Part shown: positions 10,709-15,495 of the stretch, piece after piece
How the letters are laid out: each line of letters begins with the position of its first letter
Position numbering within the stretch: position 1 is the first letter of the stretch
Assembly: GCF_001887355.1 (NCBI RefSeq)
Contig: NZ_MPIN01000012.1
Span: forward strand, 1-60,931
Length of the DNA: 60,931 nucleotides
Direction: 5' to 3'
Origin: Cystobacter ferrugineus
Lineage (GTDB): Bacteria; Myxococcota; Myxococcia; Myxococcales; Myxococcaceae
The notes under the pieces: generated by a model
The model's database searches: none
Told to the model about the DNA's origin: nothing
The model's input: only the letters and a program-made list of their open reading frames with translations
Position numbers and translations under genes: made by a program

Positions 10709-13700
10709 ATGCGTCAGGACGACAGGGATTCGAACGAAGAGCTGTTGGAGTGGGAGACCAGGATGACTGGTGCTCCAAACGAGGGGGACGAGGACGAGGA
10801 GCTCGACGACGACTTCCTGAGGCAGATCACCCAGGTGGCCGTCCCCCTGCGGACTCCGCGCCGGGGAGAGCATCTGGGAGGGCCGGATGGCCATCGGTTC
10901 GAGATCCTCGAACAGATTGGGGGCGGCGCCATGGGCCTGGTCTTCCGGGCCCGGGACCAGGAGCTGCAGCGGGTGGTGGCCCTCAAGTTCCTGCTCTCCC
11001 GCGAGGGCGTCCCCGAGGCCCCCATGAGCGCCCTGCTGCGCCAGGAGGCCAAGGCCGTCGCCCAATTGGACCACGAGAACATCGTGCGCCTGTTCGACGT
11101 GGCCGAGTGGAGCGGCGAGACGTGGGAGCCCAAGGTTCCCTTCCTGGTCCTGGAATGCCTGGAGGGCGAGAGCCTCGCGGCGCTCCTGCTGAGGGAGCGG
11201 CCCTCGCTGCGGCGCTGCCTGGAAATCATGGGGGCGGTGGCCGCGGGGCTGGCGCACGCCCATGAGCACCACGTCATCCACCGCGACCTCAAACCCGACA
11301 ACGTCTTTCTCTGCCACAAGGGGCAGGTGAAGCTGCTCGACTTCGGGCTGGCCCACATCACCGCCGCTTCGTTTCCGTCCACCCTGCACCTGCCGGCCGC
11401 CGGGACGCCGGCCTACATGGCGCCCGAGCAGTGGCGGGGACAACAGCAGGATGCGCGCACGGACTTGTGGGCCGCGGGTGCCCTGCTCTTCGAGATGCTC
11501 ACCGGCGAGCCGCCCTGTCCGGAGGCGAGCCTGGCGGAGCTGCGGGAGTGGGTGTTGTCGGATGCGCCGGTGCCCTCGGTGCGCGAGCGCCGTCCGGAGC
11601 TGCCCGAGGAGGTGGAGCGGCTGGTGGCCGCCCTGCTGGAGAAGGCGCCCGAGCGGCGGCTGTCCAGCGCGGCCGAGTTGAAGGCGTGGGTGAGCCGCCT
11701 CGAGGAGGGGCTGACGCCCTGGCGGGAGGGGACCCAGGGCCTGGGGCCCCAACGCCGGCAGGTGACGCTGCTGGAGTGCTGGCTGGCGGACCTCGCGGGC
11801 CTCGCCGAGCACCTGGACGCCGAGGACTTCGGCGAACTGGAGGGGGCGTTCCACCAAGCCTGCTCGGAGCTGGTCGTGAGCCACGGGGGCTCGGTCACCC
11901 TGTGTGTGGGCGACTCGGTGCTCGCCTGCTTCGGCTACCCCCAGGCCCGGGAGGACGACGCGGAGATGGCGGCTCGCGCGGGGCTCCATCTGGTGACGCA
12001 CCTGGGGGCCGCCATCCAGCAGAAGTTGCCGTACCTGCCGCGCCGCGAGCTCGCCGTGAAGGTGGGGCTGCACACCGACACCGTGGTGCTCGACAACCTG
12101 CCCCAACCCCTCCAGGGCCGGGCCGCGGCGCTGCAGGGCGAGGCGCCCCAGTTCGCCACCTGGCTGTCGCGCCAGGCCGCGCCCGACACCGTGTGCCTGA
12201 GCCACCCCACCTGGCGGCTGGTGCAGGGCGCCTTCCGCACCGAGCCACTCGGGGTCCGCTCCTTCCAGGGACTCACCGGCGAGCTGAGGAGCGAGCTGCA
12301 CCGCCTGGTGCGGGAGAAGCGCACCCGGGGCCGTTTCGAGCGGGCCCATGAGGCGGGGGAGCTCACACCCCTGGTGGGCCGGGAGGAGGAGCTGAAGCGG
12401 TTGACCGCGCATTGGGCGCGGGCGCGGCGGGGCGAGGGCGCGTTCGTGCTCGTGCAGGGCGAGGCGGGCATTGGCAAATCCCGCCTGTTGCAGGGGCTGC
12501 GGGAGCGGATTCCCCTGGAGGAGGGCACTTGCTTGCAGGTGCAGTGTCTGCCCCAGTTCAGCGGCAGCGCCCTGCGCCCCATCATCGATCTGTTGCTGCA
12601 CATGTTGAAGCTCGACCCGGAGGGCAATCCCCGCTCCAACCTGCGCAAGTTCCAGGGGCGCATGGGGGCGGTGGGGCTGCCGGCCGAGCACGTGCGCTCG
12701 CTGGCCGTCCTGCTCTCGCTGCCCATCGTCGAGGAGTCGCCCCACCTGCGCCTCACGCCGGAGCGTCAGAAGGAGAAGACGTTCGAGGCCCTGGTGATGC
12801 TGTTGCTGCGCATGGCCGAGGATCGCCCCGTCTTCGCGCTCGTGGAGGACTTGCACTGGGCCGACCCCTCGACGCTGGAGCTGTTGGGGGTGCTGCTGGA
12901 GCAGGTGGACCAGGCCCGGCTGTGTGTCTGCCTCACGGCGCGGCCGGACTTCCAGCCCTCCTGGCCCGCGCGCTCCAGGTTGCACCCGCTGGTGCTGGAG
13001 CGGCTGTCGCCGAGGCTCACCGCGGACCTGGTGCGGCACGCCGCCAGCGGGACGGCGCTGGCGGAGGAGACGGTGGAGCAACTCGTGGCGAAGACGGATG
13101 GGGTGCCCCTGTTCGTCGAGGAGATGACGCGCATGGTGGTGGATCGGGCGCGGGCGGGGGAGGCGTCCGTCGAGCCGTCGGCCATTCCCGTCACCCTGGG
13201 CGGGTTGCTGCTGGAGCGCCTGGACCGGTTGCCCCGGAGTCAGAAGGCGCTGGCTCAGTTGTGCGCGGTGGTGGGCCGCGACTTCAGCCACTCGCTGCTC
13301 ACGGCGCTCTCCGGACGGAGCGAGGTGCGGCTGCGACAGGACGTCTCCGGGTTGCTCCAGGAGGGTCTGTTGCAGCAGGTGGAGGAGGCGAACGAGCCGC
13401 GCTACCGGTTCCGTCACGCGCTCTTCCAGGACGCGGCCTACCACTCGCTGTTGCGCCACACGCGGCGCGACTATCACCGGCGCATCGCCCAGACCCTGGC
13501 CGTGCAGGCCCCCGAGCTGGCGGAGACGCAGCCCGAGCTGCTCGCGCACCACTACACGGAGGCGCGGGAGACGGCGACGGCGTTGCGCTTCTGGGCGAAG
13601 GCGGGGGAGCGGGCCAGCCTGCGCTCGGCCAATGTGGAGGCCATCCATCACCTGCGCGAGGGGCTCCGGTTGCTGCGCTCCCTCCCGGAGACCCCGGAGC

Positions 13701-14871: not shown

Positions 14872-15495
14872 ATGGCGACGGATCGTGAGCAGTTGGAGCA
14901 GGACATCCGGGAGTTGTGTCAGCGTGGGGATACCGGACGGGCGGTGGAGCGCGCGCTGCAGGGCTATGGAATAGAGATCATGAGGCTCATCTCCTCCGTC
15001 ATGCACAACCCGGAGCAGGCCAATGACGTCTTCAGCCTCTTCTGTGAGAACCTCCTCAAGGGGCTGCCGGGGTTTCGCTGGGAGAGCTCCTTCCGGACGT
15101 GGGCCTACCGGCTGGCGCGCAACGCCTGCTACCAGTTGCTGCACGCGCCCGCCGCGCGCGAGACGCCCGTCACCGCCTCGCTGATTCCCGAGCAGCCCGA
15201 GCCGGGCCGCTCCGACACGCAGCCCTGGCAGAGGACCTCGGTCAAGGAGCGCTTCCGCGCCCTGCGTGACAGCCTGCAACCCGAGGAGCGCATGATCTTG
15301 ATGTTCCGGGTGGACCAGCGGCTGTCGTGGACGGAGGTGGCGCGGGTCATGTGGGATCAGGACGAGCCGCCCACGAGCGCGGCGCTCAACCGCAAGGCAA
15401 CCTCCCTGCGCCAGCAGTTCCAGCGCATCAAGGCGCACCTGCGCTCCATGGCCATCGGGCAGGGGCTCATCGAGCAGGACAGGCTGGGAGGCTGA
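14872..15495 (+). CDS. ECF sigma factor paired with upstream kinase
   Basis: The start at ATG 14872 gives 207 residues, beginning 32 nt after the kinase stop. Region 2 (residues ~30-90) and region 4 (LQPEERMILMFRVDQRLSWT, ~135-155) are recognisable. The part of region 2.2 that contacts RNA polymerase reads NPEQANDVFSLF (46-57). The other ECF factor in this window, at 32384, has DPEEANDVVQEVF at the same place. Thus an Asp, a Glu and the following Q-E are replaced by Asn, Gln and S-L. Loss of these acidic residues is known in kinase-activated ECF factors such as EcfP of Vibrio. No anti-sigma gene is adjacent. Control by phosphorylation is therefore proposed, not shown. Confidence 0.85.
   Translation: MATDREQLEQDIRELCQRGDTGRAVERALQGYGIEIMRLISSVMHNPEQANDVFSLFCENLLKGLPGFRWESSFRTWAYRLARNACYQLLHAPAARETPVTASLIPEQPEPGRSDTQPWQRTSVKERFRALRDSLQPEERMILMFRVDQRLSWTEVARVMWDQDEPPTSAALNRKATSLRQQFQRIKAHLRSMAIGQGLIEQDRLGG

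Follow-up and report, generated by a model that had tools for sequence, protein, structure and literature searches.

How is an extracytoplasmic function (ECF) sigma factor controlled when its gene follows a protein kinase gene and no anti-sigma gene stands beside it? The question is raised by a locus of Cystobacter ferrugineus (genome of 12.05 Mb in 42 contigs) that lies in a stretch of 60,931 nucleotides (nt) of contig NZ_MPIN01000012.1, hereafter the window. Here, a gene for a large Ser/Thr (Hanks-type) kinase of 1376 amino acids (aa; 10709..14839, plus strand, the stop codon ending at 14839) is followed on the same strand by the gene of a 207-aa ECF sigma factor (14872..15495, plus strand) with an altered sigma2.2 region and a conserved linker motif. 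The kinase stop and the sigma ATG at 14872 are 32 nt apart. The gene 3′ of the sigma gene, on the opposite strand, codes for an Fpg/Nei-type DNA glycosylase, and no anti-sigma gene was found as a neighbor of the sigma gene. An earlier note on this DNA had described this arrangement, which our open reading frames (ORFs) and coordinates confirm, and had proposed that the kinase controls the sigma factor as in the EcfP/PknT pair. We put at about one half the probability that the two proteins form a one-to-one switch, in which the sigma factor would be activated in a kinase-dependent manner by direct phosphorylation.

The sigma factor and its kinase

Comparisons were based on 28 orthologs (at least 63% identity, query included; the next match has 57%), whose identity to the query is 63-96%, and on part of the remaining matches listed, selected for rank and spread, irrespective of context. 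The sample comprises 101 loci and 102 sequences, with 83 non-redundant members (<90% identity). As controls we took 40 of the 46 other sigma genes of the same genome, of which 34 ordinary ECFs remained after six group-2/3-like or odd ones were dropped.

The window sigma scored 55.2 bits against the ECF superfamily model TIGR02937 (cut-off 42.9), which places it among the ECFs, and 35.5 bits against Sigma70_r2 (Pfam). Its sigma4 region is very divergent, Sigma70_r4_2 matching only at E 0.038, and 10 of 51 relatives match that profile at E 0.01; promoter recognition may be unusual. The AlphaFold2 (AF2) model, with a mean predicted local distance difference test score (pLDDT) of 80 and a predicted template modeling score (pTM) of 0.46, has the ECF helices and a long final helix (169-196), while pLDDT falls below 50 in linker residues 95-114. 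Among PDB entries it matches AlgU best, and E. coli sigmaE ranks fifth; whole-chain template modeling (TM) scores are low (0.3-0.5), and region 2 alone matches region 2 of sigmaE with a TMt of about 0.8. The model and these matches suggest an ECF fold with sigma2 and sigma4 as the only domains. In the model, nine residues separate the final two helices, and codons 150-191 gave weak matches to Myb/SANT-like profiles.

In the kinase, the Pfam kinase domain (residues 64-321) is followed by a cyclase-like stretch (398-516), an AAA_16/STAND-type ATPase part (AAA_16, 554-740) and a TPR-like C-terminus. The three additional modules that the earlier note had named are all present, the cyclase-like (21.7 bits, cut-off 21.9) and TPR matches being weak and below cut-off. 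The P-loop and the VAxK, HRDxKxxN, DFG and APE motifs are intact in all 27 ortholog kinases aligned (the split kinase of locus L120 was omitted), as befits Hanks-type kinases. The cyclase-like stretch is degenerate: the Asn and Arg that we take to be catalytic are missing in 27 of 27. Hydropathy revealed no transmembrane-like stretch in the window kinase. The model of the TOMM system kinase/cyclase fusion protein (TIGR03903, TOMM_kin_cyc) aligns with it over nearly its full length (profile 3-1265 of 1267), but the score of 651 bits stays under the curated cut-off of 705.75, and we do not assign the kinase to that family.

The kinase-sigma linkage is conserved

Conservation of the pair beyond this strain, a check that the earlier note had suggested, was found throughout the orthologs, all 28 of which have the kinase gene 5′ of the sigma gene and on its strand. 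The gap ranges from -11 to 132 nt in 27 of them; the remaining one, L120, has its kinase divided between two ORFs. A Ser/Thr kinase stands within 700 nt of the sigma gene in 50 of the 83 non-redundant members (distances were measured with the longest possible ORF starts). At the control sigma loci, any kinase within about 5 kb was found in 0 of 40 by a single-sequence search and in 1 of 40, about 4.3 kb away, by a profile search. Chance adjacency of kinase and sigma genes was rejected on the strength of these control loci.

The partner kinases are far from uniform. They lie upstream or downstream of the sigma gene, on the same strand or convergent, and hydropathy predicts a transmembrane-like stretch after the kinase domain in some and not in others. 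In nine partner kinases that we scanned, the extra part was AAA, WD40, Kelch, TPR or none recognized, besides the cyclase-like/AAA/TPR type. On a sigma tree of 82 rows, built by a quick method and with 20 of its 79 inner branches weak, we counted 22 changes of the neighborhood label, whose states include "receiver only" and "none"; shuffled labels gave a mean of 46.8. The link between kinase and sigma factor thus outlasts the particular kinase and layout.

The core-binding helix of sigma2.2 is altered

Region 2.2 of the window sigma reads NPEQANDVFSLF and that of the conventional ECF factor at 32.5 kb reads DPEEANDVVQEVF, both as the earlier note gave them. The helix (codons 46-59, N46 to E59; 15007..15048, plus strand), which we aligned with the 34 control ECFs and E. 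coli sigmaE (1or7), has S55-L56 in place of the QE dyad and a conserved E59. The note's further claim that the acidic residues are neutralized stands in part: D46N, E49Q, Q55S and E56L separate the two factors and the dyad is lost, but E48 and D52 persist, and both factors have N51. Column 55 aligns with the Q of DVVQE in E. coli sigmaE (1or7), and we take it that the QE position corresponds to Q406/E407 of sigma70 and Q80 of sigma32, core-binding residues.

These changes run through the family. Column 55 holds S in 61, A in 12, G in 9 and C in 1 of the 83 members, vs. Q in 31 of 34 control ECFs; column 56 is mainly L, Q, I or V, vs. D/E in 27 of 34 controls; and column 51 is mainly R, A, K, H or Q, vs. 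D/E in 26 of 34. In the 28 orthologs, column 51 is K in 18, R in 6, N in 3 (the query included) and H in 1. The mean number of acids at columns 49, 51, 52, 55 and 56 is 1.48 in the family (n=83; query 1) and 3.24 in the controls (n=34), a difference whose Mann-Whitney p of 1.6e-15 is inflated by relatedness. Since both the acid counts and the kinase linkage differ from the controls, we regard the combination as more than chance, and conservation supports the view of the protein as an ECF under kinase control whose core-binding surface is weakened.

Candidate phosphosites in the linker and in sigma2.2

Where would a kinase act on such a sigma factor? Conservation in the 28 orthologs points to the linker motif RSDTQPWQRT (codons 113-122; 15208..15237, plus strand), with S114, T116 and T122 as candidate phosphosites. 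Its consensus is R[ST]xTxPWxRT, with R113, T116, P118, W119 and T122 invariant and position 114 always S/T. Across the 83 members column 116 is T/S in 68, and in the controls it is D/E in 22 of 34 and T/S in 2 of 34, although the linker alignment is less secure than that of the helix. EcfK is also reported to be phosphorylated in its linker, at T106, a position with acids in 6 of 7 other X. citri sigmas (PMC13147305); because ordinary ECFs mostly carry Asp/Glu at 116, Thr116 resembles this site.

Either column 55 or column 116, or both, is S/T in 79 of 83 members. We tentatively name T116/S114, in the sigma2-sigma4 linker, as the leading candidate for the main phosphosite, and S55 in sigma2.2 as a second, less consistent candidate. 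S55 as the sole essential phosphosite was ruled out, since 22 of 83 members have A, G or C in that column and 3 of 28 orthologs have G.

Relation to known kinase-linked ECF sigma factors

The closest known systems are EcfP/PknT of Vibrio parahaemolyticus and EcfK/PknS of Xanthomonas citri, of group ECF43, in which an ECF gene likewise stands beside a gene for a Hanks-type kinase. The window pair shares with ECF43 pairs the lack of an anti-sigma factor, the weakened sigma2.2 and a Ser/Thr in the sigma2-sigma4 linker where other ECFs have acids (T106 of EcfK). In EcfP and EcfK, however, the sigma2.2 phospho-acceptor is reported to be the third DAED residue (PMC8999054; PMC13147305), a Thr in 88% of ECF43 (PMC13147305), and this residue is Asn, Lys or Arg in the window family (QAND in the query). 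Column 51 is S/T in 5 of all 83 non-redundant members and in 0 of the 50 kinase-linked ones; as it is also N in the query and K/R in 24 of 28 orthologs, we do not file the sigma factor under ECF43. The proposed likeness to EcfP thus holds for the weakened core-binding surface and the conserved pair, but not for the acceptor Thr, which is N51 here. Further differences are the replacement of the QE dyad by Ser-hydrophobic, a distinction drawn from the published description and not from direct alignment; the kinase, which is a soluble STAND-type protein here and a transmembrane one in the case of PknS, according to its published description; and the presence of a receiver and of ABM-like/DyP partners, which the earlier note's account does not include.

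Kinase control has also been predicted from gene neighborhood for ECF59, ECF61, ECF62, ECF217, ECF283 and the original ECF60, some of the other kinase-linked groups having Ser/Thr in or near the motif (PMC8999054; PMC8103513). The window sigma may belong to, or near, one of these uncharacterized groups. By their published description, these groups differ in that the model members in the review table are non-myxobacterial and a DAED-like acidic motif is stated for them. The review adds that such groups may work differently and need study (PMC8999054), and in the literature surveyed, activation of a sigma factor by phosphorylation has been shown for ECF43 members only. No published description of the window pair was found in the covered parts of the open-license papers searched. 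Our best reading of the sequence is that the pair represents a variant of the phosphorylation-activated ECF sigma factors not previously described in the literature searched.

A proposed switch and its alternatives

Without the QE dyad and other acids that ordinary ECFs turn toward the β′ clamp helices, the sigma factor would be expected to bind core RNA polymerase poorly on its own. The soluble STAND-type kinase, judging from its architecture, would sense a cytoplasmic signal through its cyclase-like/AAA/TPR part and phosphorylate the sigma factor on Ser/Thr, most likely at T116/S114 in the linker and, in most members, secondarily at S55. The negative charge gained in this way would restore docking on β′ and switch the regulon on. 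In the weakest step of the proposal, this regulon would be the operon itself and/or the neighboring unit of genes for an ABM-like protein and a DyP-type peroxidase. The receiver and this unit may be a second input and the output of the switch, respectively.

Several observations weigh against this proposal. No kinase lies within 700 nt in 33 of the 83 members, and the sequence on one side is shorter than 1 kb in just 6 of these. The presence of S55 is independent of kinase linkage (Fisher p 0.31), its replacement by Ala, Gly or Cys in 22 of 83 members extends to 11 of the 50 kinase-linked ones, and column 116 is S/T at a frequency of 0.76 in members without a nearby kinase vs. 0.88 in linked ones (in another alignment). 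Since S55 ignores linkage and T116 is common in unlinked members, the case for the phosphosites is weakened, and T116 may serve structure or core binding unphosphorylated. An acid is retained at column 52 in 82 of 83 members (34 of 34 controls), and E59, a new conserved acid found in 80 of 83 members and 0 of 34 controls, could compensate for the lost ones. Also, a search of the own genome for kinases of the same architecture gave six matches, namely the window kinase, four further full-length ones and one without a kinase domain; each of the four lies more than 25 kb from the nearest sigma match, and because such kinases exist far from any sigma gene, the type must have other roles too. The sigma factor could then be active unphosphorylated, E59, F54/F57 and D52 sufficing for core binding, while the co-expressed kinase regulates, for example, the ABM-like/DyP unit. 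The conserved acids at 52 and 59 fit this explanation, and so do two stretches (L228 and L229) that have a kinase of the same type with the ABM-like and DyP genes and no member of the window sigma's family. Nevertheless, kinases with other sensor parts likewise adjoin sigma genes of the family, also in genomes with no ABM-like match (e.g., G128, G134, G135 and G136, at loci L134, L097, L096 and L079, respectively), so we judge it unlikely.

A single-domain response regulator, encoded divergently from the kinase gene (9907..10359, minus strand; Pfam Response_reg), raises another explanation, in which the receiver would be the direct gate, binding the altered sigma2.2 as a phosphorylation-dependent anti-sigma factor or co-activator, with the kinase acting on the receiver or in parallel. 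Of the 28 orthologs, 11 (query included) have a similar receiver gene oriented divergently from the kinase-sigma operon. Of 29 closer paralog loci (L039-L063, L126-L129), 18 have one 80-207 nt 5′ of the sigma gene, again divergent, and no kinase lies within 700 nt at 13 of these 18. Among the control sigma loci, 0 of 40 have a receiver within 210 nt and 3 of 40 any receiver. An alignment of 12 receivers shows the phospho-acceptor Asp in all and the Lys in nearly all of them. We nonetheless consider a receiver gate doubtful, given that all orthologs have the kinase while 15 of 28 show no such receiver in the stretch examined, and that 0 of 44 more distant family loci have one within 210 nt. Far less probable is an ECF43 member that acts exactly as EcfP and EcfK do, with a phospho-Thr at DAED position 3: the kinase neighbor agrees with it, and Q49-A50-x-acid52 fits Q49-A50-T51-E52 of EcfK, but Asn, the residue at position 51 here, cannot take phosphate, and K or R occupies that position in 24 of 28 orthologs. 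A decaying sigma gene next to a kinase gene by chance would account for the weak sigma4 match, but is hardly credible for an open frame with such identity to 27 orthologs and a fixed gene order.

The preferred reading, direct phosphorylation of the sigma factor by its kinase, can be taken a step further. The family may constitute a separate class of phospho-gated sigma factors, which have dispensed with the QE dyad, and not with the DxxD part alone, and regain charge in the linker, the signals of a soluble STAND kinase and of a dedicated receiver meeting on one sigma factor that controls the ABM-like/DyP unit; we hold this to be possible, if rather improbable in its full form. With its loss of the QE dyad, its conserved linker Thr and its natural variation in partner kinase and receiver, the family offers a testable alternative to ECF43. 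If the proposal is true, part of the large myxobacterial kinase repertoire sits directly upstream of transcription.

Neighboring genes and candidate promoters

On the far side of the receiver gene lies a gene for a conserved protein with two ferredoxin-like (ABM/SchA-like) repeats (8219..9925, minus strand), assigned from an AF2 model (mean pLDDT 75, pTM 0.77) and Foldseek, whose single match at E <= 0.001 was an ABM/SchA-like protein (TM 0.36-0.44). Neither Pfam nor NCBIfam recognized a family in it. It is accompanied by a gene for a DyP-type peroxidase (6925..8466, minus strand), with DyP_N and Dyp_perox_C of Pfam over cut-off and TIGR01413 at 99.4 bits, just under its cut-off of 100.5. Of 20 ortholog loci examined, 18 have both genes beside the kinase-sigma operon, mostly divergent from it (co-directional in L220, missing in L215 and L227), and the ABM-like gene is present in 24 of 27 ortholog loci with 7-kb flanks. 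Among 96 genomes of the family Myxococcaceae, it occurs in 26 of 28 with a sigma ortholog (on a different contig in G083) vs. 1 of 68 without; the Fisher p of this co-occurrence, 5e-20, takes no account of relatedness and linkage. G073 and G120 (loci L228 and L229) each have a second kinase of the window kinase's type, with the ABM-like and DyP genes after it on the same strand. At one locus (L231, G048:C1:675000-690000), a divergent receiver, a kinase, the ABM-like and DyP genes, a second kinase and the sigma gene stand in one row.

A search for a shared promoter of the sigma factor's own type before both divergent operons gave no convincing motif. A GAGT-N15-GTGA dyad occurred in 6 of 12 sequences, vs. 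maxima of 4-5 in shuffles, and 14 of the 21 loci compared have the housekeeping-promoter-like pattern TTGNNN-N17-TA(A/C)(C/G/T), between -64 and -92. In the window this is TTGCTC-N17-TAAT (10627..10653, plus strand), 5′ of the kinase gene, which is perhaps a promoter of the housekeeping type; we propose it tentatively, 14 of 21 being a raw count.

The wider surroundings vary. The DNA glycosylase gene and leuS recur as flanking genes in just two same-genus loci of the 27 with 7-kb flanks. Upstream in the window (3148-5084, plus strand), a gene for a DUF2169 protein is followed by a weak match, below cut-off, to SMI1/KNR4 (SUKH); we assume that such neighbors could indicate a secretion-system or immunity-type context. 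Among the orthologs, L112 has a receiver about 6 kb away and L124 one that overlaps the end of the sigma gene. Four kinase-less sigma members (L039, L040, L044 and L126) have a divergent receiver on the 5′ side and a convergent LtrA-like gene on the 3′ side, assigned by Pfam in the last three and by eye in L039.

Distribution of the sigma family

When 16 candidates per genome were scored with a profile of 51 relatives, 68 of the 195 genomes of the phylum Myxococcota had a match at E <= 1e-25. A single narrow-pattern scan of named genomes returned 29 loci, 26 of them clear relatives (25 in records named as myxobacteria and 1 in a metagenome-assembled genome, MAG, named Deltaproteobacteria) and three weak matches in MAGs of Holophagales, Acidobacteria and Gemmatimonadetes. 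The named genera carrying the family are Archangium, Hyalangium, Pyxidicoccus, Myxococcus and Corallococcus. A plasmid search with the sigma factor gave no match at E 1e-12. Within the Myxococcus/Pyxidicoccus genus group, the ortholog is found in 10 of 27 genomes, all of at least 11.2 Mb, and is missing from 16 genomes of at most 10.8 Mb and from one of 11.2 Mb. Finally, in another family of the order, f3 (L071, L075-L077, L080-L095, L098, L130 and L135-L138), each genome has several sigma paralogs, which partly adjoin kinases with a transmembrane-like stretch and WD40 or other extra parts.

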